Positions 10,650 through 25,456 of a stretch of 64,000 nt of DNA are shown one piece after another (positions within the stretch are counted from its first letter, which is position 1; every line of letters starts with the position of its first letter). The notes beneath the pieces were generated by a model. The model was not told the origin of the DNA and did no database searches. It worked only from the letters and a program-made list of their open reading frames with translations. The position numbers were made by a program, and so were the translations under genes. Origin of the DNA: Acidobacteriota bacterium (GTDB lineage: Bacteria; Acidobacteriota; Terriglobia; Bryobacterales; Bryobacteraceae); assembly GCA_016213775.1 (NCBI GenBank), contig JACQZR010000248.1, forward strand, positions 1 to 64,000, given 5' to 3'.

Positions 10650-11645
10650 ATGCATTCCAGTCCTGGGACTAGTGCAGCTTCGCCGCAAAGGCGAATCCTG
10701 CTCATCACTCCTCGTGGATTTTGCGCTGGTGTCGTACGGGCAATCGATGTGGTGAAGATCGCGCTGGAGGCTTTCGGCGCTCCGATCTACGTGCGCAAGG
10801 AAATCGTGCACAACAAACACGTCGTCGAGGAGCTTCGTTGCGCCGGAGCCGTCTTCGTCGAGGAACTCGCTGAAGTTCCCCAGGGCGCTCGTGTCATCTT
10901 CAGCGCCCACGGAGTTTCGCCTGCCGTTCGCCAACAAGCCAAACTGCGCGGGCTCTCCGTCATTGACGCAACCTGCCCGCTCGTCACCAAGGTTCACCTC
11001 GAGGCTGTCCGCTACGCCAAGCGCGGCTACACTATCATTCTTATCGGCCATAAGGACCACGACGAGGTTGTCGGCACCCTCGGCGAAGCCCCCAACGCAA
11101 CCATCCTCGTCGAAACGGAAGAGGACGTCGACCGCCTCGACATCGCCGACCCTTCGCGCATGGTCTTTCTCACACAGACCACCCTCAGCATCGAGGAAAC
11201 CACCGGCATCATCGCCCGCCTCAAAGAGCGCTTCCCCTCGATCCAGGGTCCTCCGGCGCAGGACATTTGTTACGCCACGGAAAACCGTCAACAGGCTGTC
11301 AAAGCCGTTGCCCCGCGCTGTCAGGCGCTTCTTGTCATTGGCTCCCGCAACAGTTCGAATTCGCGCCGCCTCGTCGAGGTGTGCGAGAACAACGGCGTGC
11401 GGTCTTATCTACTAGATGACGCCGCCGAAATCGACCCCGCCTGGCTGGCTGGAGTCGACACGGTGGCGGTCACCGCCGGGGCTTCCGCCCCCGAACATCT
11501 GGTTCAGGATTTGATCGCCGCGCTCCAATCCAAACATGGTTTCAGCGACGTAGAAGAAGTCGAAATCAAAGAGGAAGATGTGCGGTTCATCCTGCCAACG
11601 GAACTCCTCCCGCACGCTTCCCGTCTTACTACTATCACCGTATGA
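10650..11645 (+). CDS. ispH: 4-hydroxy-3-methylbut-2-enyl diphosphate reductase
   Basis: IspH carries out the last step of the MEP pathway, making IPP and DMAPP with a [4Fe-4S] cluster. The three cluster cysteines are present in their family motifs: RGFCAGVVRA (Cys25), DATCPLVTK (Cys109) and DICYATENRQ (Cys207). SAHGVSP and IGHKDHDE carry the conserved substrate-binding histidines. The 331-residue length is normal. Its stop overlaps the start of the squalene-hopene cyclase gene, so isoprenoid supply is co-expressed with hopanoid synthesis. Its cluster need is notable beside the ISC operon 9 kb downstream. Confidence 0.96.
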   Translation: MHSSPGTSAASPQRRILLITPRGFCAGVVRAIDVVKIALEAFGAPIYVRKEIVHNKHVVEELRCAGAVFVEELAEVPQGARVIFSAHGVSPAVRQQAKLRGLSVIDATCPLVTKVHLEAVRYAKRGYTIILIGHKDHDEVVGTLGEAPNATILVETEEDVDRLDIADPSRMVFLTQTTLSIEETTGIIARLKERFPSIQGPPAQDICYATENRQQAVKAVAPRCQALLVIGSRNSSNSRRLVEVCENNGVRSYLLDDAAEIDPAWLAGVDTVAVTAGASAPEHLVQDLIAALQSKHGFSDVEEVEIKEEDVRFILPTELLPHASRLTTITV

Positions 11646-13573
11646 TGCCAGGACTCCAGGTTGCCGACGGTTTGCTCGCCCATGCGACGCACTCAGCGCG
11701 CCGCGCCGTCGACGCGCTCTTGCGGATGCGCGGCCCGGAAGGCTACTGGTGGGCCGACCTCACTGCCGACACCACACTCGAGTCGGACTTCATCCTCCTC
11801 CAGTTGTGGATGTATCCACCCAAGGGCACCCACTGGAATCCCCCCACGCGTCATTTGGTAGACCGGGCGGTTGCCTCGATACTCGCCCGTCAACTCCCTG
11901 ACGGCGGCTTCAACATTTATCAAAAAGGCCCCTCCGAAATCAGCGCCTCGGTGAAAGCCTACTTCGCGCTCAAAGTCTCCGGCCTCTCCCCTGACGATCC
12001 CCGTATGACGAAGCTGCGCGATCGCATTCTTGCCCTCGGCGGCCTCCAGCGCGCCAACAGCTACGTCAAAATCAACCTCAGCCTCTTCGGTCTGTACCCG
12101 CGCGAATTCGTCCCCTCCGTCCCGCCCGAGCTGATGCTCATGGGAAACGTGATCTACGAAATGTCCTCCTGGACCCGCGCCATCGTCATCCCCCTCTCGA
12201 TCGTGCACGCCTCCAACCCGATGCGGCCGGTGCCCGAAGGCTTCCACATCGACGAAATCCACGCGCCCGGCGTCAGCTTCGCATTCCCGGGCGGCGGCAA
12301 CCTGATCAGTTGGAAGACCCTCTTCCACACCGTGGACAAGTTCCTCAAGCACTGGGAACGCTTTGCTCCTCGGTCCATCCGCCGCAAGGCAATGGAAAAG
12401 GCACTCGCCTGGTCGCTCGAACGCACCAGAAATACCCACGGACTCGCGGCAATCTACCCACCGATGCAGTACCTGATCATGGCCCTCGATTGCATGGGCG
12501 TCCCGCGCGACAATCCCGATCACATCGAAGCCCAGAAGCAGTTTGAAAACCTCATGGTGAACGATGAGCGTGGCTTCTTCTTCCAACCCTGCTTCTCGCC
12601 CGTGTGGGACACTGCCATCGCTGCCTTCGCAGTCGGCGAAACCGGACTTGCTCCAAAAGACGCCATGCGCAACACCGCGGATTGGCTCCTCACCAAGGAA
12701 GTCCGCCGCCCCGGTGACTGGTGCTACAAGCGCCCCGGCGTCGAGCCCTCCGGCTGGTACTTCGAATTCGCCAACGAGTTCTACCCCGACATCGACGACA
12801 CTGCCATGGTGCTCATGGGGCTGAAGCATGCCCGCGCCAGCAACGCCGCCCATCATCAGACGGTTATTGACCGCGCGGTCAAATGGCTGCTCGCCATGCA
12901 ATCCTCCGATGGCGGCTGGGCTGCCTTCGATGCCGACAACAATTGGCAGTTCCTAGCCGACGTGCCCTTTGCCGATCACAACGCGATGCTCGACCCCACC
13001 TGCCCGGACATCACGGGCCGCGTGATGGAAGCGCTCGCCATGCACGGCGTCCCGGCGGATCATCCCACCATGCAGCGCGGGGCGGCGTTTCTTCGCGCCA
13101 CCCAGGAAGCCGACGGGAGCTGGTATGGACGCTGGGGCGTTGACTACATCTACGGTACATTCCTCGCTCTCCGGGGCCTCCGCGCCGCCGGCGAGAGCGA
13201 CCGCGAAGCTCACATCCTCCGCGCCGGCGAATGGCTCCGCGCCATCCAGAACGCTGATGGCGGCTGGGGCGAATCCTGCGAAAGCTACGACCGCAAGACC
13301 TTCGTTGCCGCCCCCAGCACCCCATCACAAACCGCCTGGGCCGTCCTCGGTCTCCTTGCCAGTGGCGATGACATCTCCGAGAGCGTGCGCAAAGGCATCG
13401 AATTCCTCATCGACACTCAGAAGCCTGATGGAACGTGGGATGAAGAGCTCGCCACCGGAACCGGATTCCCCAGGGTGTTCTACCTCACCTACCACCTCTA
13501 CCGCAAGTCCTTCCCGACGCTGGCTCTGGCAGCGTTCCTCAAACGGAAGAACGCCGAATTCTCCAGAGCCTGA
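11642..13573 (+). CDS. shc: Squalene-hopene cyclase
   Basis: The 643-residue protein has the catalytic DxDD motif as DIDD at residues 383-386 (within FYPDIDDTAMVLMGL), which protonates squalene to start the polycyclisation to hopene/hopanol. Several QW repeats are visible (QLPDGGFNIY, QSSDGGWAAFDADN, QEADGSWYGRWG, QNADGGWGE, QKPDGTWDE). It is a monotopic inner-membrane enzyme. Start ATG 11642 overlaps the ispH stop; ATG 11645 is equally possible. The downstream gap of 33 bases holds a Shine-Dalgarno-like AAAGGAG for hpnH. Confidence 0.97.
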   Translation: MMPGLQVADGLLAHATHSARRAVDALLRMRGPEGYWWADLTADTTLESDFILLQLWMYPPKGTHWNPPTRHLVDRAVASILARQLPDGGFNIYQKGPSEISASVKAYFALKVSGLSPDDPRMTKLRDRILALGGLQRANSYVKINLSLFGLYPREFVPSVPPELMLMGNVIYEMSSWTRAIVIPLSIVHASNPMRPVPEGFHIDEIHAPGVSFAFPGGGNLISWKTLFHTVDKFLKHWERFAPRSIRRKAMEKALAWSLERTRNTHGLAAIYPPMQYLIMALDCMGVPRDNPDHIEAQKQFENLMVNDERGFFFQPCFSPVWDTAIAAFAVGETGLAPKDAMRNTADWLLTKEVRRPGDWCYKRPGVEPSGWYFEFANEFYPDIDDTAMVLMGLKHARASNAAHHQTVIDRAVKWLLAMQSSDGGWAAFDADNNWQFLADVPFADHNAMLDPTCPDITGRVMEALAMHGVPADHPTMQRGAAFLRATQEADGSWYGRWGVDYIYGTFLALRGLRAAGESDREAHILRAGEWLRAIQNADGGWGESCESYDRKTFVAAPSTPSQTAWAVLGLLASGDDISESVRKGIEFLIDTQKPDGTWDEELATGTGFPRVFYLTYHLYRKSFPTLALAAFLKRKNAEFSRA

Positions 13574-13606
13574 CCGAGCATCACAAAGGAGCGAAACATA
13601 AGCCGA

Positions 13607-14713
13607 ATGCGATTCCCACTAGCCATGACCACCGGGCTCGCCACCTACATCATGAAGAACAAGATGCGGCCCCGTCCTGAGTGGCAGGTGAACAAGTCGG
13701 TCGTCAGCGAATCCAACCCGTTCAAAATCATCTACACGATGAAGACCGATACGGCTCGCCAACCGCACCCTCTCATCCACAAGCGCTTCCCGCTGGTGCT
13801 GATGCTCGAACCGCTCCACACCTGCAACCTCACCTGTACCGGTTGCGGTCGCATCCGCGAGTACGAATCCACCATCACTCAGAAGCTCACTCTTGACCAG
13901 TGCCTCAAAGCCGTTGATGAGTGCGGCGCCCCCATGGTTTCCATCTGCGGCGGCGAACCCCTGCTCTATCCCGAAATCGGCGGCCTTGTCGCCGGCATCA
14001 TGCAGCGCGGCCTCTCCTGCTACCTCTGCACCAACGGCATGTTCATTCAGCGCCGCCTCAAGGATCTCACTCCGCACGACCTGTTCTTCTTCAATGTCCA
14101 CCTGGACGGCATGGAAAAGAATCACGATCTCGCGGTGGAACGCGACGGCGTATTCAAGGAAGCCATCGCCGGCATCCGGGCAGCCAAGGCCGCGGGCTTC
14201 AAGGTCGTCACCAATACGACGGTCTACAAAGAGACCGACATGAACGAAATCGAAGAACTCTTCACTTACCTGAAGCAGTTCCACGTCGACGGTCACACGA
14301 TCGCGCCGGCCTACGGCTACTCAGCCGTTAACGACCGCGAAATCTTCATGACCCGCGACGACATTCACAAGAAATTCGAACACATCGAGCGGATGTCCAA
14401 AGTCTATCCGCTCCAGACTTCGCCGGTTTACATGGACTTCCTCCAGGGGAAACGTGAACTTCCCTGCACCGCTTGGGGCAATCCCACCTACAACGTCAAG
14501 GGCTGGAAAGGCCCCTGCTATCTGATTACCGACGCCCACCACAACACATTCGAGGAGTTCATGACACAGACGCCGTGGGATCAGTATGGTCCCGGCGCTG
14601 ATCCGCGCTGCGAACATTGTATGATGCACTGTGGCTTTGAGCCGTCGGCGGCTTTCGGCATCAATTCGAAGGTCAGCGACCCGTTCCGGTTGCTGAGTTG
14701 GATGCTGCGTTAG
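13607..14713 (+). CDS. hpnH: Adenosylhopane synthase, radical SAM
   Basis: HpnH uses radical SAM chemistry to join the 5'-deoxyadenosyl group to diploptene, giving adenosylhopane, the first side-chain step. The cluster motif C-x3-C-x2-C is at Cys73, Cys77 and Cys80 (HTCNLTCTGCGRI). SICGGEPLLYPEI is the typical SAM-contacting GGEP segment. The preceding FPLVLMLEPL and the C-terminal cysteine-rich CEHCMMHCGFEPS are characteristic of HpnH. The length of 368 residues is normal. The gene sits inside the hopanoid operon, directly after the cyclase whose product it uses. Confidence 0.95.
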   Translation: MRFPLAMTTGLATYIMKNKMRPRPEWQVNKSVVSESNPFKIIYTMKTDTARQPHPLIHKRFPLVLMLEPLHTCNLTCTGCGRIREYESTITQKLTLDQCLKAVDECGAPMVSICGGEPLLYPEIGGLVAGIMQRGLSCYLCTNGMFIQRRLKDLTPHDLFFFNVHLDGMEKNHDLAVERDGVFKEAIAGIRAAKAAGFKVVTNTTVYKETDMNEIEELFTYLKQFHVDGHTIAPAYGYSAVNDREIFMTRDDIHKKFEHIERMSKVYPLQTSPVYMDFLQGKRELPCTAWGNPTYNVKGWKGPCYLITDAHHNTFEEFMTQTPWDQYGPGADPRCEHCMMHCGFEPSAAFGINSKVSDPFRLLSWMLR

Positions 14714-14738
14714 TCGCGGCACCTGCGGTAGGTCCAAG

Positions 14739-15716
14739 TTGAAACCAGTTCTGGTGACGGGGGTTACAGGGTTCATTGGCTGGCACGTGGCAAAGCAGCT
14801 CATCGAGCGCGGCGAGCAGGTTCGTGCGCTTGTTCGCTCCACCAGCCGTGTCTCCGGACTGCCACAGATCGAAGCCTTCACCGGTGATCTGCGTGATGCC
14901 GCTTCACTCCAACGCGCCGTCGCCGGCTGCTCCACCGTCTATCACATCGCGGCCGATTACCGCCTCTTCACGCGCAAACCCGAGGAGATGTACGCCTCCA
15001 ACGTCGATGGGACCCGCAACCTCCTCAGCGCGGCTCGTCAGGCCTCCGTCGACCGCATCGTCTACACCAGCACCGTCGGTTGCATCGGGATCCCCCTCAA
15101 CGGCATCGGAGACGAATCCATGCCGGTAACCATTCAAGCCATGACGGGACACTACAAACGATCGAAGTTCCTCGCCGAGCGCGTCGCCCTCGAAGCCGCC
15201 TCCGCTGGCGATCCCGTCGTCATCGTCAACCCCACCGCTCCCGTCGGCGATCACGATGTCAAACCCACTCCTACCGGCAAGATCATCGTCGATTTCCTCC
15301 GCCGCGACATGCCTGCTTTTATCGACACGGGATTAAATCTGGTGGATGTGCGGGATACAGCAAGAGGACACCTGCTCGCCGCTGATAAGGGAAGACCCGG
15401 CGAGCGCTACATCCTGGGTTGCGAGAACCTCACCCTTCGCGCGATTCTGGAACGTTTAGAAAGGTTGAGTGGATTGCCTGCGCCGCGTATACGGATTCCC
15501 TACGCCGTGGCCTACCTCGCGGGCGTGTGCAGCACTGCCTGGGCTAGTGTCACCGGCGCCGAGCCCCGCGCGCCGCTGGAGGGCGTGCGAATGGCCCGCA
15601 AGAAGATGTTCGTGACCGCTGAAAAAGCCCGCCGCGAATTGGGCTTCGTTCCCGGTCCCGTCGATGGTGCACTCGAACGCGCCATCAACTGGTTCCAGGC
15701 CAATGGGTATTGTTGA
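14739..15716 (+). CDS. hpnA: Hopanoid-associated NAD-dependent epimerase/dehydratase family sugar reductase
   Basis: This extended short-chain dehydrogenase has the Rossmann motif VTGVTGFIGWHVA at the N-terminus. The central YTSTVGCIG and GHYKRSKFLAE supply the Ser/Tyr/Lys catalytic set, with Tyr and Lys in YKRSK. HpnA is regularly found with hpnB/C/D/H in hopanoid clusters, but its reaction is not settled. The start is a TTG at 14739, chosen because MKPVLVTGVTGFIG begins exactly where the family begins and no ATG lies nearby. The distance to hpnG is three bases. Confidence 0.88.
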   Translation: MKPVLVTGVTGFIGWHVAKQLIERGEQVRALVRSTSRVSGLPQIEAFTGDLRDAASLQRAVAGCSTVYHIAADYRLFTRKPEEMYASNVDGTRNLLSAARQASVDRIVYTSTVGCIGIPLNGIGDESMPVTIQAMTGHYKRSKFLAERVALEAASAGDPVVIVNPTAPVGDHDVKPTPTGKIIVDFLRRDMPAFIDTGLNLVDVRDTARGHLLAADKGRPGERYILGCENLTLRAILERLERLSGLPAPRIRIPYAVAYLAGVCSTAWASVTGAEPRAPLEGVRMARKKMFVTAEKARRELGFVPGPVDGALERAINWFQANGYC

Positions 15717-15719
15717 GGA

Positions 15720-16409
15720 ATGATTCTGATGGTTGCCGCTGACCGCTACGAATTTACGGGGATTGAATCGCATGGTAGCGACTGGCGCCGTCTTGCCTGG
15801 CCCGTCGGCTATGCCGCCCAAGGCTCTATCGGCAACACACCTGTCACGCTCGTCGCCAACGGCCCCGGCCCCGCCTTGGCCCGCGCCGCCGTCGATAGCG
15901 CCTTCTCCCACGCCTCCTACAAAGCCGTTGTCAGCACCGGCGTTTGTGGCGCGCTACGGCCTTCCCTGCGCGTCGGCGATGTCGTCGTCGCCGCCGAAGT
16001 CCTGGACTCAGCTTCCGGCCGCCGTTTCGCCTGCGCACCTTTCGGTGGAGCATCCGGTGACGCCGTCGTAGTCAGCCAGGATCGCGTAGCCTGCACCATC
16101 GAAGAAAAACGTGCCCTCGCCTCCTCCGGCACCATCGTCGAGATGGAAGCCGGCGCTGTCGCCGCCCGCGCCAATGACGCCGGCATCCCCTTTTCCTGCA
16201 TCCGCGCCGTGAGCGATAGCGCCTCCGATGCCATGCCGCTCGATTTCAATCTGTTCCGTGATTCCCAAGGCCGCTTCCGCCGTGGCGCCATCGCCGCTGC
16301 CGCCTTGGCCCGTCCGTTTTCGCGCGTTCCCGCGCTGTTCCGTTTGCAACGCAACGCCACTTTCGCGTCCGCCAAGCTGGGAGAGTTCTTTGCCAACTGC
16401 AGTCTCTAG
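15720..16409 (+). CDS. hpnG: Hopanoid-associated nucleoside phosphorylase (adenosylhopane to ribosylhopane)
   Basis: The protein is a 229-residue member of the purine nucleoside phosphorylase/MTA-SAH nucleosidase fold. AVVSTGVCGALRPSLRVGDVVVA is the conserved glycine-rich core and GTIVEMEAGAVAARANDAGI carries the ribose-binding MExG-like segment. HpnG removes adenine from adenosylhopane, leaving (phospho)ribosylhopane. Its place right after hpnH and hpnA supports that role rather than general purine salvage. The match to HpnG rests on fold motifs plus context. Confidence 0.85.
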   Translation: MILMVAADRYEFTGIESHGSDWRRLAWPVGYAAQGSIGNTPVTLVANGPGPALARAAVDSAFSHASYKAVVSTGVCGALRPSLRVGDVVVAAEVLDSASGRRFACAPFGGASGDAVVVSQDRVACTIEEKRALASSGTIVEMEAGAVAARANDAGIPFSCIRAVSDSASDAMPLDFNLFRDSQGRFRRGAIAAAALARPFSRVPALFRLQRNATFASAKLGEFFANCSL

Positions 16410-16413
16410 CACG

Positions 16414-17514
16414 ATGCCGACCGGCGAGCCATCCCTGTCGCCGGTCCCGCAGACCATGCGCGCCGCCGTCTATCGCGGCGATAGCCGTATTGCTATCGAG
16501 TCCGTCGATACGCCCTGCATCGGTCCCGGCGAATTGCTCGTTCGCGTGGAAAGCTGCGGCATCTGCCACACCGACCTCAAGAAGGTCGAGCACAACCTCC
16601 TGTCACCTCCCCGCATCTACGGCCACGAGACCGCGGGAGTCGTGGTCGCTGCCGGCGAAGGCGTCAGCAGATTCCGCGCCGGCGACAGGGTGATTGCATT
16701 CCACCACATTCCATGTGGAAAATGTTTTTATTGCCACAAGCGCCTGTACGCCCAATGCCCCGTCTACAAGAAGGTGGGTATAACCGCCGGCTTCGAGCCC
16801 GCCGGCGGCGGTTTCGCGCAGTACATCCGCATCATGGATTGGATTGTCGACCGCGGCGTCGAAAGAATTCCGGATGGTGTCACCTATGACATCGCCTGCT
16901 TCGTCGAGCCCCTCAACACCTGCCATAAAGCCGTTACGATCGCCTCCCCTCAACCTGGAGAACTGGCGCTCGTGCTCGGTCAGGGTCCCATTGGGCTCAT
17001 CTTCACCTCATTGGTTCAGCGCACGGGGGCGACGGTCTTGACTACCGATACCTTCGAAGCCCGCCGTGCCCTTTCGCTCCGCTTCGGTGCCGGGTCCAGC
17101 TTTGACCCGCGCTTGGCAGACCTCCCCGCCGAAGCCGCTCGCCTTACCGCCGGTCGCGGCGCCGACGTCGTTTTCGTCTGCGCTTCCGCCCCCGGCATCG
17201 TCGAACAGGCATTCCGGGCCTCGCGACCCGGTAGCCGGATATTGTTATTCGCGCAGACTTCGCACAAAGAACGGATCGATGTTTCCGGTGCGGACATCTG
17301 TGTAGGAGAGAGAACCTTGTTCGGCGCCTACAGCGCCGATGTGGACCTGCAAGCCGAGTCGGCGCGCCTTGTTTTCAGTGGCGAGGTCCCCGTTGCGGAC
17401 CTCATCAGCCACCGTGTCGCGCTTGACGAGATTGAGGCCGGGATGGACAGGGCTTTGCATCCTGATGCCAAATCGTTGAAAATAATTGTTCAGCCCCAGA
17501 GGACGACAAAGTGA
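16414..17514 (+). CDS. Zinc-dependent medium-chain alcohol dehydrogenase, hopanoid operon member 1
   Basis: The N-terminal GroES-like domain carries the catalytic-zinc residues (SCGICHTD and YGHETAGVV) and a structural zinc lobe of four cysteines ([15 protein letters not shown]). The Rossmann half carries [13 protein letters not shown]. The cofactor is probably NAD(H) or NADP(H). ATG 16414 follows the hpnG stop by four bases; ATG 16456 (MRAAVYRGD) would start exactly at the family's usual N-terminus and may be the true start. The stop overlaps the GTG start of a second, divergent enzyme of the same family. It is embedded between hpnG and hpnC, so a hopanoid substrate is likely, such as the open-chain aldehyde of ribosylhopane; that is inference. 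Confidence 0.85.
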
Positions 17515-18551
17515 ATAATCAGATGATGGCGGCCGTCCTGTACGGCAAGGAAAGCCTGCAGATCGAGCCGGTTGCCGTTCCACAAATTGGTCCCGACGAC
17601 ATCCTGGTACGGGTACGGGCCGCGCTTACCTGCGGTACCGACGTGAAGGTGTTCCGGCGGGGCTATCACGCCCGCATGATTGTGCCCCCGGCACTGTTCG
17701 GCCACGAACTGGCCGGCGACATCGTCGCCGTGGGCCAGAACGTGCGTACATTCCATCCCGGCCAGCGCGTCGTTTCCGCCAACTCCGCTCCTTGCGGCAA
17801 CTGTTTCTATTGCAGAAAGAACAAAGAGAACCTTTGCGAAGACCTCATCTTCAATAACGGAGCGTACGCCGAATACATCCGCATCCCCAGCCGCATCGTT
17901 CAGAAGAATACCTACGAGATCCCCGCCCACATCACCTATCAGGACGCAGCTCTGATTGAGCCCCTCGCCTGTGTCATGCGCGGCCTCGAGGAATGCGGCC
18001 TGGAGAATCTCGATACCATTTCCGTCATCGGCCTCGGCCCGATCGGCCTTATGTTCGTTCGCCTCGCCAAAGTCTACGGAGCCCGCGTCATCGCTATCGG
18101 CCGCCGCAAGTCGCAGCTCGATCGCGCCGCTCGCATGGGCGCCAACGATCTCCTCTGTACCGCCGACGATTACGATCATGCCGCTCATGTCCGCCATCTC
18201 ACCGGCGGACGCGGCGTCGATGTCGCCATTGAAGCAGTCGGCACGCCCGAAACGTGGCAACTCGCGGCACGCATGGTCCGCCGCGGGGGCACCGTCAACT
18301 TCTTCGGCGGCTGCCCCTCCGATAGCGCCGTCGCCCTCGATACCAACCTCCTCCACTATTCCGAAATCACCTGCAAGGCCAGCTTCCATCACACTCCGGC
18401 CTATATTCAAAAAGCTCTCGATGCCGTCAGCAGGCTCGACATCACCGCCGCCGATTTCGTCAATCGGGAAGAGCCGCTCTCCAACCTGCTGGAAGTGATG
18501 CGCCATCTCATGAGCCACAACGGCCACATGAAAACCGCCATCATCCCCTAG
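17511..18551 (+). CDS. Zinc-dependent medium-chain alcohol dehydrogenase, hopanoid operon member 2
   Basis: This 346-residue protein has the same two-domain plan as its upstream neighbour: catalytic zinc site TCGTDVK with FGHELAGDIV, structural zinc cysteines CGNCFYCRKNKENLC, and nucleotide-binding VIGLGPIGLMFVRLAK. The two proteins are clearly different in sequence, so they are not a recent tandem duplication. The GTG start is four-base overlapped (GTGA) with the preceding stop. The pair may act as a heteromer or on successive steps. It could also belong to sorbitol/threonine dehydrogenase-like enzymes of unrelated function, but the tight operon argues for hopanoid chemistry. Confidence 0.85.
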   Translation: MNNQMMAAVLYGKESLQIEPVAVPQIGPDDILVRVRAALTCGTDVKVFRRGYHARMIVPPALFGHELAGDIVAVGQNVRTFHPGQRVVSANSAPCGNCFYCRKNKENLCEDLIFNNGAYAEYIRIPSRIVQKNTYEIPAHITYQDAALIEPLACVMRGLEECGLENLDTISVIGLGPIGLMFVRLAKVYGARVIAIGRRKSQLDRAARMGANDLLCTADDYDHAAHVRHLTGGRGVDVAIEAVGTPETWQLAARMVRRGGTVNFFGGCPSDSAVALDTNLLHYSEITCKASFHHTPAYIQKALDAVSRLDITAADFVNREEPLSNLLEVMRHLMSHNGHMKTAIIP

Positions 18552-18570
18552 CCCCCGGGGCCCGACTCCT

Positions 18571-19512
18571 ATGCCTGCACAGCCCGTCGGCCAGGAACGA
18601 TTTCTCTCACCCAGAGATTTCGTTTTCCATGCCGATGCCTCGAAATGGCTGTGGTCCCGTGAAGAAGCCGAACAGTACACCCGCTGGCTCGCCACTTCGC
18701 ACTACGAGAATTTCCACGTCGTCAGTTTCCTGTTGCCCAAGAAGCTACACCAGGATTTCTTCAACGTCTATGCGTTCTGCCGCTGGTCCGACGACCTCGG
18801 AGACGAAATCGGCAATACTACCGAGAGCCTCCGCCTCTTGGCTTGGTGGCGCGCCGAACTCGAAGGCATGTACGCCGGCCTGGTCCGTCATCCCGTCTTC
18901 ACCGCCCTCGAAGGCACTGTCAAGAACCACGCGCTCCCCATGGAGCCCTTCGCCGATCTCATCAGCGCCTTTGAACAGGACCAGACCGTCACTCGCTACC
19001 GCACCTGGACCGAGCTGTTTCAGTACTGCCGCTATTCCGCCAATCCCGTTGGCCGGCTGGTCCTCTATCTCTGCGGCTACCGCGACGCCGAACGCCAGCA
19101 ACTCTCTGACTACACTTGCACCGCCCTCCAGCTCGCCAACTTTTGGCAGGACGTCACCGTCGACCTGGAAAAGGATCGAGTCTACATCCCGATCGAGGTC
19201 ATGGAGCAGTACGGCTACACCATCGCCGAATTGTATGCCCGCCGATTCACCCCCGAGTTTCGCGAAGTGCTTCGCGAGGTCTGCGAAAAGACCCGCGAAC
19301 TGTTCGACAAAGGCCTCCCGCTCCCGCGCATGGTCGACAAACGTCTCGCCGTCGATCTCGAGCTCTTCAGCCGCGGCGGACTCAAGGTCCTCGAAAAAAT
19401 CTCCGAGCTCGACTACAACGTTCTCGCCCAGCGCCCGGTCGTGACCAAGACAGAACGTGCCGCGCTGCTGGTCAAAACACTACTTCACGTAGCCTTTTCC
19501 ATTGCCGCATGA
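18571..19512 (+). CDS. hpnC: Squalene synthase HpnC (presqualene diphosphate to hydroxysqualene)
   Basis: The 313-residue protein is a head-to-head prenyl synthase homologue. The first aspartate-rich motif is FCRWSDDLGDE and the second is ANFWQDVTVDLEKDRVYIP, both diphosphate/Mg2+ binding. In the three-enzyme route HpnD joins two farnesyl diphosphates to presqualene diphosphate, HpnC makes hydroxysqualene, and HpnE reduces it. The N-terminal TRWLATSHYENFHVVSFLLP is typical of HpnC and separates it from HpnD. The stop overlaps the hpnD start by four bases (ATGA). Confidence 0.93.
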   Translation: MPAQPVGQERFLSPRDFVFHADASKWLWSREEAEQYTRWLATSHYENFHVVSFLLPKKLHQDFFNVYAFCRWSDDLGDEIGNTTESLRLLAWWRAELEGMYAGLVRHPVFTALEGTVKNHALPMEPFADLISAFEQDQTVTRYRTWTELFQYCRYSANPVGRLVLYLCGYRDAERQQLSDYTCTALQLANFWQDVTVDLEKDRVYIPIEVMEQYGYTIAELYARRFTPEFREVLREVCEKTRELFDKGLPLPRMVDKRLAVDLELFSRGGLKVLEKISELDYNVLAQRPVVTKTERAALLVKTLLHVAFSIAA

Positions 19513-20354
19513 CAGCGCTCGATGAGTCCTACCGCTGGTGCGCCGGCGTGGCCCGCAGCCGCGCCAAGAACTTCTACCCGTCGTTTCTTCTGCTCGATTC
19601 CACCCGGCGCCGATCCATGTGCGCTGTCTACGCCTTCATGCGCATCTGCGACGATTTGAGCGACGAGCCCGGCGAGAAACAGCGATCGGCGTTTCAGGAT
19701 TGGCGAGCCCAGATGTCCGATGCGGTGGAAGGCCGCGCCCTCAGCCGTCACCTCGTCTGGCCCGCACTCCACGACACAGTCACCCGCTACCGCATCCCGT
19801 CCCAATACCTCCACCATATGATTGACGGTGTCGAGTCCGACATTGATTTCCAGACCATTGAGACTTTCGAGCAGTTGTATCAGTACTGCTACCGCGTCGC
19901 CTCGGTCGTGGGACTCATGGTCGTGCACATCCTTGGTTACCAGCGGCCCGAAGCGTTGCCGCTTGCCGAGCAATGCGGTGTCGCCTTCCAACTGACCAAC
20001 ATCCTTCGTGACGTGAAGGAGGATTTCTTCAACGGCCGCGTCTATCTCCCGCTAAAGGACCTCAAGACATTCGGCGTCGCCGACTCCGACCTTGCCGGTG
20101 ACCGCGTGTCCCCCGAACTCCGCCGTCTTCTCGCTTATGAGGCCTCGCGTGCCCGCGGCTACTACCGCGAATCCGCCCCTCTGATCGACATGGTGGAACC
20201 AGCCGGACGTCCCATGCTGCGCGCCATCATCGCCATCTATTCTCGTCTCCTCGAACGCATTGAAGCCGCCGACTACGAAGTGCTATCGCAACGCCTCTCG
20301 GTCCCGGGAATGGAGAAGATATGGATCCTCGCCAAAGCCGCGGTAGGTCGTTAA
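19509..20354 (+). CDS. hpnD: Presqualene diphosphate synthase HpnD
   Basis: The 281-residue protein begins WCAGVARSRAKNFYPSFLLL, typical of phytoene/squalene synthases. The two metal-binding motifs are RICDDLSDE and LTNILRDVKEDFFNGRVYLP. HpnD condenses two farnesyl diphosphate molecules to presqualene diphosphate. The true start is ATG 19509, four-base overlapped with the hpnC stop; an upstream open stretch in this frame is only the shadow of hpnC. It is the last recognisable hopanoid gene here: hpnE does not follow, the next gene being iscR after a 177-base regulatory region. Confidence 0.93.
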   Translation: MTALDESYRWCAGVARSRAKNFYPSFLLLDSTRRRSMCAVYAFMRICDDLSDEPGEKQRSAFQDWRAQMSDAVEGRALSRHLVWPALHDTVTRYRIPSQYLHHMIDGVESDIDFQTIETFEQLYQYCYRVASVVGLMVVHILGYQRPEALPLAEQCGVAFQLTNILRDVKEDFFNGRVYLPLKDLKTFGVADSDLAGDRVSPELRRLLAYEASRARGYYRESAPLIDMVEPAGRPMLRAIIAIYSRLLERIEAADYEVLSQRLSVPGMEKIWILAKAAVGR

Positions 20355-20400: not shown

Positions 20401-20472
20401 GGGCACAATTTTGCCCGTTCCCTGAATATACGACCTTTCCGGTCGTACCATATGCGACAATTTTGGTCGTAC
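20401..20472. promoter_or_regulatory. Array of inverted repeats upstream of the isc promoter
   Basis: Three related elements lie in the hpnD-iscR gap. GGGCA...TGCCC (20401-20416) surrounds CAATTT. TACGACC (20429-20435) and GGTCGTA (20441-20447) form a perfect seven-base inverted repeat with a five-base centre. A further GGTCGTAC recurs at 20465-20472, preceded by CGACAATTTT, echoing the CACAATTTT of the first element 52 bases upstream. These could be binding sites for IscR or another regulator; the first could instead be a weak hpnD terminator. The binding protein is unknown. Confidence 0.45.
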
Positions 20473-20477
20473 ACCTA

Positions 20478-20521
20478 TTGACCTCCACCGGTCCGAGGGG
20501 TATAACAGATATAGGACCGGT
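20478..20521 (+). promoter_or_regulatory. isc operon promoter overlapped by an eight-base inverted repeat
   Basis: TTGACC at 20478-20483 and TATAAC at 20501-20506 are separated by exactly 17 bases, a very good sigma70-type promoter. ACCGGTCC (20487-20494, inside the spacer) and GGACCGGT (20514-20521, just downstream of the -10) are a perfect eight-base inverted repeat flanking the -10. A repressor bound there would block the promoter, fitting autoregulation by IscR, whose ATG begins at 20532. Confidence 0.7.
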
Positions 20522-20531
20522 TAAGTCGCAT

Positions 20532-21020
20532 ATGCTGAAGCTCACAAAAAAGGCTGACTACGGGTTGATTGCTCTGAAGCATCTCTCGATTACCGCCACG
20601 GGCTCGGCCTCCGCCAAGGAGATCGCCGACAGCTACAGCATCCCCCTGCCTCTGCTCGCCAAAGTCCTCCAGAAGCTCGCCAAGCAAGGCTTCCTCCGTT
20701 CCGAGCAGGGGACCAACGGCGGTTACCGCCTCGCCCGGGCAGCGGCACGCATTAACGCCCTTGAGGTCATCCGCGCCATCGACGGCCCTATTATTCTCAC
20801 CAGTTGCTTCACCGCCCATGGCGCCTGCGGCCTATCCGACCGCTGCAATGTTCGCGAACCGCTCCGCAGGATTCACGAAGGAATCCTCGGCCTCCTCGAA
20901 AGCATCTCAATAGCCGACATGTCCAGCGACGACCCTGACTCGCGCCTTTACGAAATCCCGATTTCATCCCCGGCCGGCGGACTCACAGCCGCAGCCCCGC
21001 ATTTGCAGGAGACAGTATGA
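20532..21020 (+). CDS. iscR: Rrf2-family [Fe-S] cluster regulator IscR
   Basis: The protein starts [19 protein letters not shown], the Rrf2 winged-helix N-terminus, with the recognition region [20 protein letters not shown] and wing [12 protein letters not shown]. Three cysteines ([16 protein letters not shown], spacing C-x6-C-x5-C) match the cluster ligands of IscR. It would sense cluster status and control the operon that it heads. ATG 20532 is chosen because the domain begins there; the frame is open 69 bases further up but that stretch is promoter. The C-terminus, about 30 residues after the cysteines, is Pro/Ala-rich and not conserved. The stop overlaps iscS by four bases. Confidence 0.92.
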
Positions 21021-22231
21021 ATTTCCCAATTTACATGGACTATCACGCCACCACGCCGCTGGACCAGCGCGTGCTCGACGGGATGATGCCCTACATGACT
21101 TCTAAGTTCGGCAACGCCGCCAGCCGCAACCACTCGTTCGGTTGGGAAGCCGAAGAGGCCGTGGAAACGGCGCGAAAACAAATCGCCTCTCTCATCGGCG
21201 CAACAGCCAAGGAAATCGTATTCACCTCCGGTGCAACCGAATCGAATAACCTCGCCCTCAAAGGCGTCGCGGAGATGTACGCCGAGCGCGGCAACCATAT
21301 CATTACCGCCTCCACTGAGCACAAAGCGACTTTGGACACCTGCAAACGCCTGGAAAAACACGGCTGCCGCATCACCATCCTCCCGGTTATGGCCGACGGT
21401 CTGATCGACCTCGACATGCTCCGAGAGGCCATCACTGAGAAAACGATCCTGATCTCCATCATGTATGCCAACAACGAGATTGGCGTCGTCCAGCCCATCG
21501 CGGAAATCGGTAGAATTGCAAAGGAAAAGGGCGTCCTCTTTCACACGGACGCCGTCCAGGCCACCGGCAAAATCCCCGTCGACGTGACCAAAGACAACAT
21601 CGACATGCTCTCGCTCAGCGGCCACAAGATCTACGGGCCCAAAGGCGTCGGCGCGCTCTACGTCCGCCGCCGTAACCCTCGCGTCCAGCTTACCGCCCAA
21701 ATGGATGGCGGCGGGCATGAACGCGGCATGCGCTCGGGTACTCTCAACGTACCCGGCATCGTGGGACTCGGCAAAGCGTGCGAGATTTGCCGCGACGAGA
21801 TGCCCACCGAATCCAAGCGCCTCGCCGCCCTGCGCGACAAGCTCAAAAGCGCCCTGCTGGCGAACTTAGACGAAACCTACGTCAACGGCTCCATCGAGCA
21901 CCGCTTGCCGAATAACTTGAACATCTCTTTCGCCTATGTCGAGGGCGAATCGCTGCTCATGGGCATCAACGACGTCGCCGTATCTTCGGGTTCCGCCTGC
22001 ACGTCCGCAACACTCGAACCGAGCTATGTACTCAAGGCCCTCGGCGCAGGCGACGACCTCGCCCACTCCTCCATCCGCTTCGGTCTGGGCCGTTTTACCA
22101 CCGAAGAAGAAATCGATTACGTAATCGGAAAAGTAACTGAGGTCGTAAAGAAGCTCCGTGAACTCTCACCTCTCTACGACATGTTCAAAGAAGGCATAGA
22201 CCTGAGCAAAGTCCAATGGACCGCACACTAA
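21017..22231 (+). CDS. iscS: Cysteine desulfurase IscS
   Basis: IscS takes sulfur from cysteine for Fe-S cluster assembly using PLP. The PLP lysine is Lys204 in [13 protein letters not shown]. The catalytic Cys328 lies in [19 protein letters not shown], the same position as in the E. coli enzyme. [11 protein letters not shown] provides the conserved active-site histidine. The length of 404 residues is standard, and the C-terminal tail ([15 protein letters not shown]) that contacts IscU is intact. It overlaps iscR by four bases. Confidence 0.97.
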
Positions 22232-22249
22232 CAAGGGAAAGGAACAATT

Positions 22250-22654
22250 ATGGCCTACTCGAATAAAGTTCTGGATCACTACAACAACCCCCGCAACGTC
22301 GGCACACTCGACAAGTTCGATCCCAACGTCGGCACGGGCATGGTCGGCGCTCCCGAATGCGGCGACGTGATGAAGCTTCAGGTGAAGGTCAACCCCATCA
22401 CCGGCATAATTGAAGACGCCAAGTTCAAAACCTTCGGCTGCGGGTCCGCCATCGCCTCTTCGTCACTGGCAACTGAAATGTTGAAAGGCAAAACCATCGA
22501 CGAGGCACTGGAAATCAAGAATACCGAAATCGTGAACGAACTGGCCCTCCCCCCGGTGAAAATCCACTGCTCGGTGCTTGCGGAGGATGCCATAAAGGCA
22601 GCCATAACCGACTACAAGAAGAAAGTGGTGCCCGAAACAGCCCAAGCAGTATAG
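22250..22654 (+). CDS. iscU: Fe-S cluster scaffold IscU
   Basis: This 134-residue scaffold keeps all cluster ligands: Cys37 with Asp39 in PECGDVM, Cys64 in TFGCGSAIA, and Cys107 with His106 in KIHCSVL. The HscA-recognition motif LPPVK is exactly conserved at residues 100-104, which agrees with the hscB and hscA genes in the operon. A GGGAAAGGAA ribosome-binding stretch precedes the ATG. A small hairpin spans the stop codon. Confidence 0.97.
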   Translation: MAYSNKVLDHYNNPRNVGTLDKFDPNVGTGMVGAPECGDVMKLQVKVNPITGIIEDAKFKTFGCGSAIASSSLATEMLKGKTIDEALEIKNTEIVNELALPPVKIHCSVLAEDAIKAAITDYKKKVVPETAQAV

Positions 22655-22692
22655 GCTGCTTTTGCGCTTTTGCGGCCTGCTTTGCGTTTTTT
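22644..22692 (+). terminator. Weak attenuator-like hairpin and short tandem repeat between iscU and iscA
   Basis: AAGCAG (22644-22649) and CTGCTT (22656-22661) form a six-base stem whose loop contains the iscU stop codon. Right after come two perfect copies of CTTTTGCG (22659-22666 and 22667-22674), a degenerate third CTTTGCG (22680-22686), and a run of six T. The stem is too short for a strong terminator, but partial termination or RNA processing here could lower iscA-hscBA expression relative to iscSU. Confidence 0.3.
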
Positions 22693-22733
22693 CGTTAAAC
22701 CTGTGCTAACCAAATTTGTTGGAGCTAAGTAAA

Positions 22734-23081
22734 ATGTCAACCGTAGCCATACAACCCGCCGTTCAAGTTACCCCGAAGGCCGTAGCCAAAATCCGCGCCG
22801 CCTTCGCCCGCGAGGGAGTCAGCGAGGGTGGTCTCCGTCTCGGCGTTCTGGGCGGCGGCTGCTCCGGCCTCAGCTATCAATTCAAGTTCGAACCTAAGTG
22901 CCGCCCCACTGACCATGTCTTTGACTACGACGGCGTCAAGGTTTTCATCGACCCGAAAAGCATGGTCTTCCTCGATGGCATGACCCTCGATTGGAAGGAC
23001 TCTCTCATCCAATCCGGCTTTGTTTTCGAAAACCCGCACGCCAAGCGCAGTTGCGGCTGCGGAACCAGCTTCTCCGCCTAA
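22734..23081 (+). CDS. iscA: A-type Fe-S carrier IscA
   Basis: The 115-residue protein has the three cluster cysteines of A-type carriers: Cys43 in LGGGCSGLSYQF, and Cys107 and Cys109 in the C-terminal SCGCGTSF. GGAG at 22721-22724 nine bases before ATG 22734 fixes the start; a TTG 18 bases earlier is rejected. A-type proteins pass clusters from IscU to client apoproteins. The protein could be called ErpA-like by sequence, but its place in the isc operon favours IscA. It is followed four bases later by hscB. Confidence 0.93.
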   Translation: MSTVAIQPAVQVTPKAVAKIRAAFAREGVSEGGLRLGVLGGGCSGLSYQFKFEPKCRPTDHVFDYDGVKVFIDPKSMVFLDGMTLDWKDSLIQSGFVFENPHAKRSCGCGTSFSA

Positions 23082-23085
23082 GTCC

Positions 23086-23610
23086 ATGCCAGTCTCGAAC
23101 GACTACTACGGGTTCTTCGGCATCCCCCGCAGACTCGCTCTCGATACCTCTGTCTTGCAGAAGCGCTTCTATGAACTCAGCCGCCAGTATCATCCCGACC
23201 GTTTCGCCCGCAAAGCGGCGTCCGAGAGGCTCCAGGCTGAAGAGTCCACCGCCATCCTCAATGACGGCTACCGCATCCTCAAGGACCCCGTCTCACGGGC
23301 CGAGTATGTCCTCAAGCAGGAAGGCTTCGATATCGGCGAACAAAGGTCCAAGGACGTTCCTCCCGAACTGCTCGAGGAAGTCTTCGAATTCAACATGGCA
23401 TTGGAAGACCCCGATGCCGACTTAGAAGGGTTTAAGACTCGTTTCGCCGCCATGCGCGAAGAGATCGACTCCAAGCTCCAGTCTCTCTTCGCACAATATG
23501 ATTCCAGCCCTGATAAGTCGAACCTCCTGCAAATCCGTAATATTCTGAACCGCCGCCGCTATATCCGCAATCTCATTAACCAGGCGGACAAGGTCCATCA
23601 ACATGCCTAA
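23086..23610 (+). CDS. hscB: Co-chaperone HscB (J-domain)
   Basis: The 174-residue protein has an N-terminal J-domain with the essential HPD tripeptide at residues 36-38 (RQYHPDRFA). The C-terminal helical bundle ([19 protein letters not shown]) typically binds IscU. HscB brings IscU to HscA and stimulates its ATPase. ATG 23086 is used because the J-domain starts right after it. The end overlaps hscA by eight bases. Confidence 0.94.
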
Positions 23611-25456
23611 CGTCTTCGAAATCGACTTCGGCGAACACCGCAAATCCACCATCGTCGGCATCGACCTCGGTACCACCAACTCACTTGTCGCCTTCATGGA
23701 TCTCACGGGACCAAAGGTCATCCCCGGCGTCGACGGCTCCAACATCGTACCCAGCGTCGTCTCCCTCAGCGCCGCCAATGGTTATGTAGTGGGCAATGCA
23801 GCCCGCCGCCTCCTAATCGACCAGCCGGAGCGCACCGTCTACTCAGTGAAGCGACTCATGGGCCGCGGCGTAGCTGATGTCAAAGACGAACTGGGCCTCT
23901 TCCCCTTCCGCGTTGCACCGGACAGCGAGCAGGTAATCAAACTCCAACTCGGCGACAGGCTCCTCACCCCGTCCGAAATCTCCGCCCAGGTTTTGCTCCA
24001 ACTCAAGCGCAATGCCGAAGCCAACCTCGGCCATCCCATCGCGCAAGCCGTCATCACCGTCCCGGCCTACTTTAATGATGCCCAGCGGCAGGCCACCAAA
24101 GACGCCGGCCGCCTCGCCGGCCTCGAAGTCCTCCGTCTGGTCAACGAACCCACCGCGGCTTCACTCGCCTACGGCCTCGACAAGCGGCAGAATGGCGTCG
24201 TCGCCGTCTACGACCTCGGCGGCGGCACGTTCGATATCTCGATTCTCCGGCTGCACGACGGCATCTTCGAAGTGCTCGCCACCAATGGCGACACCCACCT
24301 TGGCGGAGACGACATCGACAACCGTCTCCTCAGGATCGCCCTTGAAGATATCGGCACCGAGTGGCACGAAGACCTCTCCCACAACGGGGAGGCCGTGCAG
24401 CTCCTGCGCCGCGCCGTCATTGACGCGAAAGAGCAGCTCTCCTCCGCGCCGGCGGTCAGCGTGACCTTCGAGTACCACGGCCACACCTACCACCGCACCA
24501 TCACGCGCGACCTCTTTGAAGGCCTCATCCGCGACATCGTCGACCGTACTCTCGGCCCGTGCCGTCAGTGCCTCCAGGACTCCGGCCTCACCGTCGATCG
24601 AATCGACGAAGTCGTGATGGTCGGGGGCTCCACGCGCATCCCAATGGTCCGCTCCGCCGTCGAGCAGCTTTTCAAGGCCAAGCCGCACACCGAGCTCAAC
24701 CCCGATGAAGTGGTCGCCCTCGGAGCAGCCGTGCAGGCCGGCATCCTCTCTGGCCAGGTGGAGGACAAGCTCCTGCTCGACGTCACCCCGCTCTCGCTCG
24801 GGATCGAAACCATGGGCGGAGTCGTCTCCAAAATCATCCAGCGCAACTCGACGATTCCCGCCAGCGCCAGGGAAACCTTCACCACCGGCGTCGACGGCCA
24901 GACCAATGTTCTGATCCACGTGCTGCAGGGCGAACGCGAGCTCGTCACCGACTGCCGTTCGCTAGCCCGCTTCGAGCTCAAAGGCATCGAGCCCATGCCC
25001 GCCGGCGCCGCCCGCATCGAAGTGAAGTTCCTGATCGATGCCAATGGCATCCTCAGCGTCACCGCCCGCGACGGCCGCACCGGCTATGAAACCAGCGTCG
25101 AAGTGAAGCCCAGCTACGGCCTCACAGAAGACCAGGTGGAGGCGATGATCAAGGAGTCCATCGAGAAAGCTGAGGATGACTTCCGCGAACGCCAGCTCCG
25201 AGAAGCCCGCCTCGAAGCCGACACCATCATGGCCGCCACCCGCAAGGCTAAGGAGAACGAGGCCTGGCGCGACCTTTCCGACGAGGAGCGCGCCCGCATC
25301 GATCTTCTCTACAACCACCTGCTGCTCGCCTACCACCACAACAACTACGACCTGATCCTCAGCAAGATCCACGAGCTCAACGAAGCAACAGTGGGTCTGG
25401 CCGAGAACATGATGAACTCTGCCGTCCGCGCCGCCCTCAAAGGCACTCACGTATAG
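23603..25456 (+). CDS. hscA: Fe-S assembly Hsp70 chaperone HscA
   Basis: The 617-residue Hsp70 has the phosphate-binding loop [29 protein letters not shown] and [14 protein letters not shown] in the nucleotide-binding domain, then a complete substrate-binding domain. [23 protein letters not shown] marks the linker and its start. HscA pulls on the LPPVK motif of IscU to release clusters. Its length and operon position identify HscA rather than DnaK. The expected next gene, ferredoxin, is missing and an unrelated ATPase gene begins eight bases later. Confidence 0.95.

Follow-up and report, generated by a model that had tools for sequence, protein, structure and literature searches.

Many C35 hopanoids derive from bacteriohopanetetrol (BHT), which is also among the sources of the hopane fossils. 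In Methylobacterium, the reduction at the BHT step uses NADPH. The enzyme that converts ribosylhopane into BHT is described as not established in the available passages of a 2025 study (PMC12583986), in agreement with the first-pass annotation of the DNA analysed here, which held that ribosylhopane reduction lacks an accepted enzyme; the available passages of PMC8537080 name no enzyme for this step either. The closest described systems are the hopanoid clusters of Sinninghe Damsté 2017 (PMC5462960). According to the passages available from that paper, ug1 sits after hpnA-hpnG, and ug2, for which Zn-binding alcohol dehydrogenase (~350 amino acids) is a frequent annotation, is often found before hpnC. 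It is reported there for every SD1 and SD3 genome of the study; another passage describes SD3 clusters without ug2 at the hpnC position. In the same passages ug2 is associated with hpnC-D-E and squalene and not with BHT, hpnA is suggested for the BHT step, the product of ug1 is not stated, and ug1 and ug2 are not described as a matched pair. Here we analyse a window of 64,000 nucleotides (contig JACQZR010000248.1, assembly GCA_016213775.1, an Acidobacteriota bacterium), in which two dehydrogenase genes, ADH1 and ADH2, lie within a hopanoid cluster. ADH1 follows hpnG as ug1 does, and ADH2 precedes hpnC and has the length given for ug2; both were likened by position and length, not by sequence. 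The window, which resembles Bryobacterales loci, thus does have ADH2 at the ug2 position.

ADH1 and ADH2 form a conserved, matched pair beside hopanoid genes, and judged from their sequences and surroundings they are strong candidates for the BHT step. Given linkage and co-occurrence, the arrangement is far beyond chance. We consider it very probable that the pair takes part in the metabolism of C35 hopanoids in Acidobacteriota. A gene for a Zn alcohol dehydrogenase before hpnC (ug2) is already in print with another interpretation, as far as the available text of the 2017 paper goes (PMC5462960). The pairing, the cofactor complementarity, the separation rule and the co-occurrence statistics described below were not met in the literature searched, and a search whose coverage left out most subscription journals found, judged by titles, listings and available passages, no proposal of these dehydrogenases for the BHT step. 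Between hpnG and hpnC, where the first-pass annotation had placed them, lie two full-length zinc-type dehydrogenases on the + strand:

16414..17514, + strand: ADH1, zinc medium-chain dehydrogenase with an NAD-type signature (Asp212); PF08240 and PF00107; ug1 position of Sinninghe Damsté 2017
17511..18551, + strand: ADH2, zinc medium-chain dehydrogenase with an NADP-type signature (Gly197-Arg198-Arg199); PF08240 and PF00107; ug2 position

The first-pass annotation placed both genes in hopanoid side-chain formation, and their distribution among 199 Acidobacteriota genomes, surveyed by profile searches, supports a hopanoid role. HpnH, detected with a curated model, is present in 50 of these genomes, and none of 14 control genomes matches. 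The hpn-type ADH1 was found in 28 of the 50 HpnH-positive and in 1 of the 149 HpnH-negative genomes (Fisher p 2e-19). The ADH2 superclade, including sister types, occurs in 44 genomes at E ≤ 1e-110, a threshold placed at a gap in the scores (7e-116 to 1e-90); 41 of the 50 HpnH-positive genomes have it, as against 3 of the 149 others (Fisher p 4e-30). Genomes within a family are not independent. Tests by genus (18/26 versus 2/94, Fisher p 2e-13) and by family (7/14 versus 2/52, Fisher p 1e-4; a total of 66 families is assumed, after the highest family label seen) lessen the effect of kinship, albeit not fully. It should be noted that the ADH2 profile includes the type b and type c rows of G051, G063, G078, G108, G123 and G132, which match by construction and had been chosen from the ADH2 search and its gene maps. 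The HpnG model is unspecific: 51 of 54 genomes match it at E ≤ 1e-8, none above the cut-off, and 7 of the 14 controls match too. For this reason, hpnG was identified from its place in the cluster together with weak similarity, and HpnH served for the co-occurrence tests.

Linkage points in the same direction. Strong matches (E ≤ 1e-100) were obtained for ADH1 in 29 and for ADH2 in 30 of the 199 genomes; all 29 ADH1 genomes also have ADH2, and the extra ADH2 genome is G132. The hpn-type ADH1 is preceded by hpnG or hpnA in 28 of its 29 genomes, the mapped gene being hpnG in 21 (with ~630 bases in between in G084) and hpnA in seven genomes of family f28. In G066, the pair lies away from the hopanoid genes. 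ADH1 and ADH2 are adjacent in 17 of the 29 genomes and the cluster is split in 12, and a simple separation rule holds for all 12: ADH1 goes with hpnG, and ADH2 stands directly before hpnC-hpnD. An absence of linkage in relatives, which the first-pass annotation had named as grounds for dismissing its idea, was not found, as linkage is conserved in families f1, f2, f28 and f50. A scan of named genomes covered at least 80 loci, some of which span only 3-7 kb, so that absent neighbours are less telling there. Among the loci listed, 51 of the 55 that make up the ADH1 clade (L208-L262, 44-68% identity) have a hopanoid gene in the fetched flanks. The others are L245, L252 (a 3.4-kb contig), L258 and L261, and the genomes of the latter three have HpnH. 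By comparison, none of the 25 distant homologues listed (L263-L287, ≤33% identity) has hopanoid genes nearby. When both locus sets are taken together, which brings in a few duplicates, 74 of 82 mapped ADH1-clade loci have hpnG (63) or hpnA (11) directly upstream. The window is most similar to the Bryobacterales loci L208-L220 among those listed.

Two groups of relatives deserve mention. Six f28 loci (L107, L109, L111, L113, L115 and L118) have the order ispH-hpnA-ADH1-ADH2-hpnD, and a further one (L106) reads shc-hpnH-hpnA-ADH1-ADH2-hpnC-hpnD. None of the seven f28 clusters has hpnG between hpnA and ADH1, and the best HpnG matches of these genomes are weak (59-72 bits) and lie on other contigs. 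Terriglobus roseus KBS 63, for which 99% tetrafunctionalised bacteriohopanepolyols are given in Table 1 of the 2017 paper (PMC5462960, available in part), carries ADH1 directly after hpnG (DSM 18391, L244). Its genome contains two equal-scoring HpnH matches (C1:2326654 and C1:2787173) ~460 kb apart, suggesting that hopanoid genes were duplicated recently.

The two genes go together even where they are apart. An ADH1-type gene (E ≤ 1.2e-111) is present in all 44 genomes with the ADH2 superclade, and the two are non-adjacent in 15 of them, i.e. the 12 split genomes plus G096, G123 and G165. The pairing is therefore not a mere by-product of linkage. The ADH1-type profile is less clean in that G020, G060 and G101, which lack the ADH2 superclade, reach the scores found at the lower end of the 44, closely followed by G192 and G120. 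In a tree of 68 chosen rows, the hpn-type ADH1 sequences form one clade (100/99). The hpn-type ADH2 sequences together with a few unlinked kin form another (99/91), within the ADH2 superclade (100/99). The superclade also contains members of adjacent pairs of type b (L157, L158) and type c (L142, L151, L153). Their partners are ADH1-like; those of type b stand weakly beside the ADH1 clade (84/52) and those of type c fall among other homologues. No hopanoid gene was seen in the fetched stretches around the adjacent ADH1-like/ADH2-like pairs L157, L158, L142, L151, L153, L305 and L306, and eight genomes of f47 g70 carry adjacent type b pairs. G096, G123 and G165, which we take to be Chloracidobacterium, have both members at separate sites, as at C1:1313908 and C1:1367791 in G123.

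Both proteins belong to the medium-chain dehydrogenase/reductase (MDR) superfamily, since the GroES-like ADH_N (PF08240) and the Rossmann ADH_zinc_N (PF00107) domains score above their cut-offs in ADH1 and ADH2 alike and the zinc ligands are in place. They are 33% identical over 272 aligned positions, so the first-pass annotation was right that they are not close copies; this value and their separate clades rule out close duplicates. Residues were counted in 76 distinct orthologue sequences of each protein, with zinc ligand positions assigned as is usual for the family. The presumed catalytic ligands of ADH1 (C51, H71, E72 and E165) are each found in 76 of 76 sequences. In ADH2, C41 is kept in 72 (Asp in four) and H65, E66 and E150 in all 76. 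The structural-zinc cysteines are present in 75, 76, 76 and 76 sequences of ADH1 (one Arg in one sequence) and throughout in ADH2. With zinc ligands kept in both proteins, a degenerate, non-catalytic partner can be ruled out. A Phe-His-His-Thr-Pro motif at ADH2 292-296 is likewise conserved (75, 75, 70, 73 and 75 of 76). In an NCBIfam scan, no model reached its cut-off for either protein. The best model is scyllo-inosose 3-dehydrogenase IolM for ADH1 (NF041097, cut-off 450; ADH1 150.7, ADH2 156.7 bits) and L-threonine 3-dehydrogenase for ADH2 (TIGR00692, cut-off 458.35; ADH1 146.9, ADH2 158.7 bits); the phosphonate-associated "HpnZ" model scores lower (TIGR03366, cut-off 328.1; ADH1 103.2, ADH2 98.3 bits).

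The two sets of sequences differ at the end of the second Rossmann strand (beta-2). As a usual rule for the Rossmann fold, an acid at this position indicates NAD, and the lack of an acid followed by Lys or Arg indicates NADP. ADH1 has Asp in 75 of 76 sequences and Glu in one, whereas in ADH2 the position is taken by Val, Gly or Ala in 74 and by Asp in two, with Lys or Arg next in 69. As read from these residues, the cofactor signatures are complementary, NAD-like in ADH1 and NADP-like in ADH2. The type b pair (L157, L158) has an acid in both partners. AlphaFold2 models built from alignments reached a mean predicted local distance difference test score (pLDDT) of 92.0 for ADH1 and 91.8 for ADH2, and 50 solved entries are listed for the models at Z 37.5-43.6. 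The nearest fold to ADH2 is the NADP-bound 4ejm (Z 43.6, root-mean-square deviation (rmsd) 1.8 over 334 residues, 31% identity). For ADH1 it is 4ej6 (Z 41.5, rmsd 2.2, 338 aligned residues, 29% identity), and 4ejm matches ADH1 equally well (Z 41.5, rmsd 2.1 over 336). Both entries are a zinc-binding dehydrogenase of Sinorhizobium meliloti, "putative" by title, and the entry titles give no link to hopanoids. Since the NAD-type ADH1 also ranks an NADP-bound structure first, the fold match leaves the cofactor undecided. The whitefly ketose reductase 1e3j, an NADP(H) enzyme, is in the top five folds for ADH2 and has Ala-Arg at the cofactor position where the alignment places Gly-Arg in ADH2. It shares the fold with ADH2, as do the sorbitol dehydrogenases 1pl6 and 3qe3 (Z 41.5-41.6, 25-28% identity); these ketose reductases and sorbitol dehydrogenases act on free sugars and polyols. 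Fold comparison was discarded as a guide to the substrate, because many MDRs match both models at similar Z and no substrate is indicated.

A more specific reading, which we put forward tentatively as nearly an even call, is that ADH1 and ADH2 constitute a two-enzyme redox module dedicated to building the C35 hopanoid side chain, in which ADH2 is the likelier NADPH-dependent ribosylhopane reductase. We infer substrate, direction, cofactor use, order of steps and physical interaction of the pair as follows. HpnH yields adenosylhopane and HpnG ribosylhopane, and the pair would act after both. ADH2, as a zinc-dependent reductase of the aldose/ketose type, would use NADPH to turn the C-35 aldehyde of open-chain ribosylhopane into the primary alcohol found in BHT. 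ADH1, as an NAD-type polyol dehydrogenase, would act on this ribose-derived chain as well and catalyse a redox step coupled to the first, perhaps the oxidation of a carbinol, and possibly within a heteromer with ADH2. The reduction is assigned to ADH2 in the first place because it is a zinc dehydrogenase with an NADPH-type pocket and a distribution tied to HpnH. Since a single reduction would leave the constant NAD-type partner unexplained, a coupled step of ADH1 is proposed.

Several observations weigh against this assignment. To reduce one aldose, a single enzyme suffices, and a constant pair is not required. Where the cluster is split (12 genomes), it is ADH1, not ADH2, that stays by hpnG, the reverse of what the cofactor signatures would lead one to expect, so that the proposed division of roles between the two is tentative. 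To our knowledge, neither protein has a described activity, structure or mutant. Three genomes have the ADH2 superclade in the absence of an HpnH match. G113, with hpnA, shc and hpnD beside the pair, may lack HpnH owing to fragmentation of the assembly; G078 and G132 carry the pair genes as well, and so do the genomes of L245 and L220, again with no HpnH match. Conversely, 9 of the 50 HpnH-positive genomes (G007, G029, G059, G071, G092, G099, G119, G152 and G192) have no member of the ADH2 superclade, two of which (G152 and G192) possess weaker adjacent pairs. The HpnH-positive families found here without the pair are f3, f25, f26, f41, f48 and f56. In G007 (L150), ispH-shc-hpnH is present and no match to HpnG, ADH1, ADH2 or HpnE was found in the genome. 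All these genes form one cluster in G171 of the same genus, so G007 may have a missing contig or have lost the block. Joint descent of all pair types is not borne out by the tree. The three presumed Chloracidobacterium genomes, of a genus proven to make BHT, contain distant members only, unlinked to each other and, within the fetched stretches, to hopanoid genes. C. thermophilum makes BHT and is without ug2 by the count of the 2017 paper, as far as available (PMC5462960).

The association also fades outside the Acidobacteriota. We searched 294 genomes of a second phylum (that of G200, presumably Planctomycetota) with a threshold set by eye at E ≤ 1e-95 (next value 5e-89). The ADH2 superclade is present in 39 and HpnH in 105 genomes, with 23 having both (Fisher p 0.002). 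Thus, the association with HpnH is much weaker in this phylum and most HpnH-positive genomes (82 of 105) do without ADH2, whereas 16 of the 189 HpnH-negative genomes have the superclade. From this distribution, hopanoids overall do not require the superclade, and the superclade is not confined to them. It is not present wherever HpnH is, as would be expected of a ribosylhopane reductase of a single kind. Because many HpnH-positive genomes lack the pair, other reductases must exist, and ADH2 could be at most one of several.

The 44 of 44 pairing and the opposite cofactor signatures fit an oxidation followed by a reduction better than a single reduction. They could reflect a redox-neutral inversion that takes place instead of, or in addition to, the net reduction and determines the stereochemistry of BHT. 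ADH1 would oxidise a ribose-derived carbinol by means of NAD+, the resulting ketone would be reduced again by ADH2 and NADPH, now from the opposite face, and the aldehyde would be left to another enzyme. The presence of polyol and threonine dehydrogenases among the nearest folds of both models would suit such chemistry. The single literature search aimed at this point found no stereochemical data for acidobacterial BHT, and the acids in both partners of the type b pair indicate that complementarity is not universal; we regard an inversion as unlikely. A bolder version, in which an NAD/NADP pair, perhaps heteromeric, is itself the missing BHT-forming step in Acidobacteriota, oxidises and reduces, sets the stereochemistry and provides a route independent of other producers, appears a little less probable still. 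The position of ADH2 immediately before hpnC-hpnD in all 12 split genomes brings to mind the association of ug2 with squalene made in the available passages of PMC5462960. ADH2 might then serve squalene synthesis with hpnC-hpnD-hpnE, leaving the side chain to ADH1. Several findings render this improbable. HpnD, HpnC and HpnE suffice for squalene (Pan 2015, as cited in the accessible part of PMC5462960). Six f28 genomes of genus g40 keep ADH2 in the absence of an HpnE match at E ≤ 1e-40, and the f28 g40 clusters show hpnD and no hpnC at the locus (hpnC was sought at the locus, not genome-wide). Moreover, none of the 44 superclade genomes is without an ADH1-type partner. ADH2 was also considered as a stand-in for HpnE and rejected, as HpnE occurs alongside ADH2 in 22 of the 29 hpn-type ADH1 genomes; the remaining seven (G037, G085, G103, G113, G122, G180 and G196) gave no HpnE match at E ≤ 1e-40.

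Zinc dehydrogenases act in aminocyclitol pathways. If HpnA, the short-chain dehydrogenase/reductase (SDR) encoded beside hpnG, were the reductase, ADH1 and ADH2 could tailor the head group, e.g. in the formation of a cyclitol ether or an aminosugar. In favour of this, hpnA and hpnG are neighbours in the window as in many mapped loci, a scyllo-inosose dehydrogenase is the top-scoring NCBIfam model for ADH1, albeit far below its cut-off, and 21 of the 29 hpn-type ADH1 genomes have an HpnJ match. HpnJ, which is needed for the cyclitol ether, was not found at E ≤ 1e-100 in the other eight (seven f28 genomes and G066), for which reason cyclitol-ether tailoring was rejected as the main role. In the available passages of PMC5462960, SD1 and SD3 are without hpnK, and evidence cited there indicates that BHT formation in Burkholderia does not depend on hpnA. 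Little probability thus attaches to head-group tailoring. The occurrence of the superclade in HpnH-negative genomes (G078, G132 and the 16 of 189 in the phylum of G200) would befit polyol dehydrogenases of general function whose genes lie in the cluster but which have no part in hopanoid chemistry. Such a role would hardly account for adjacency conserved in f1, f2, f28 and f50, for hopanoid neighbours retained after the cluster has split, for the absence of hopanoid genes near all 25 distant homologues among the loci listed, or for the co-occurrence of 41/50 versus 3/149, and we deem it highly improbable. The redox module with ADH2 as reductase thus remains our preferred reading. If the pair does convert ribosylhopane into BHT, the question becomes testable with two genes; the pair would then mark side-chain capacity in acidobacterial genomes, and lineages without it would be the place to look for further reductases.

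ADH1 and ADH2 belong to a row of nine + strand genes at 10650-20354 in the order ispH, shc, hpnH, hpnA, hpnG, ADH1, ADH2, hpnC, hpnD. Among the neighbours, ispH, shc, hpnH, hpnA and hpnC score above their NCBIfam cut-offs, whereas hpnG and hpnD remain below theirs:

10650..11645, + strand: ispH, 4-hydroxy-3-methylbut-2-enyl diphosphate reductase, first gene of the cluster; TIGR00216, 335.7 bits (cut-off 187.85)
11642..13573, + strand: shc, squalene-hopene cyclase; TIGR01507, 623.1 bits (cut-off 431.1)
13607..14713, + strand: hpnH, adenosylhopane synthase (radical SAM); TIGR03470, 408.9 bits (cut-off 225.05)
14739..15716, + strand: hpnA, hopanoid-associated sugar epimerase (SDR); TIGR03466, 461.8 bits (cut-off 367.65)
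15720..16409, + strand: hpnG, hopanoid-associated nucleoside phosphorylase/nucleosidase; TIGR03468, 132.0 bits (below the cut-off of 187.1), named by best family and position beside hpnA
18571..19512, + strand: hpnC; TIGR03464, 349.7 bits (cut-off 250.45)
19509..20354, + strand: hpnD; TIGR03465, 252.2 bits (below the cut-off of 278.6), named by best family and position

The four-base overlaps described in the first-pass annotation hold for one of the three junctions, that between ADH1 and ADH2 (GTGA, 17511-17514), where the GTG start codon of ADH2 (346 amino acids) overlaps the ADH1 stop. The other two are gaps, of 4 bases between the hpnG stop and the ATG of ADH1 and of 19 bases between the ADH2 stop and the ATG of hpnC; hpnC and hpnD overlap by ATGA. 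Counted from its first ATG, ADH1 has 366 amino acids. Its start may be at 16414 or, alternatively, at 16456 (Met15), as judged from the sequence: Met15 is present in at least 90% of 14 aligned orthologues, and residues 1-7 are the sole stretch of the predicted model with a pLDDT below 50. The GC content of ADH1 and ADH2 resembles that of the neighbouring genes. A recent gain of these two genes alone was considered and set aside on this ground, which argues little either way.

A third zinc dehydrogenase gene of the window (28217-29224, - strand) lies outside the hopanoid cluster, and its product is 34% identical to ADH2. Directly 3' of hpnD, at 20463-25456, there are genes that, read by eye, resemble an iron-sulphur cluster set (IscR, IscS, IscU, IscA, HscB and HscA). 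Also by eye, genes resembling mevalonate-pathway enzymes were noted beside shc-hpnH in G059 (L162) and G152 (L166). The genome of the window (G000) has an HpnE match at C312:35938-37203 and an HpnJ match at C244:26109-27512, both on contigs other than that of the cluster.

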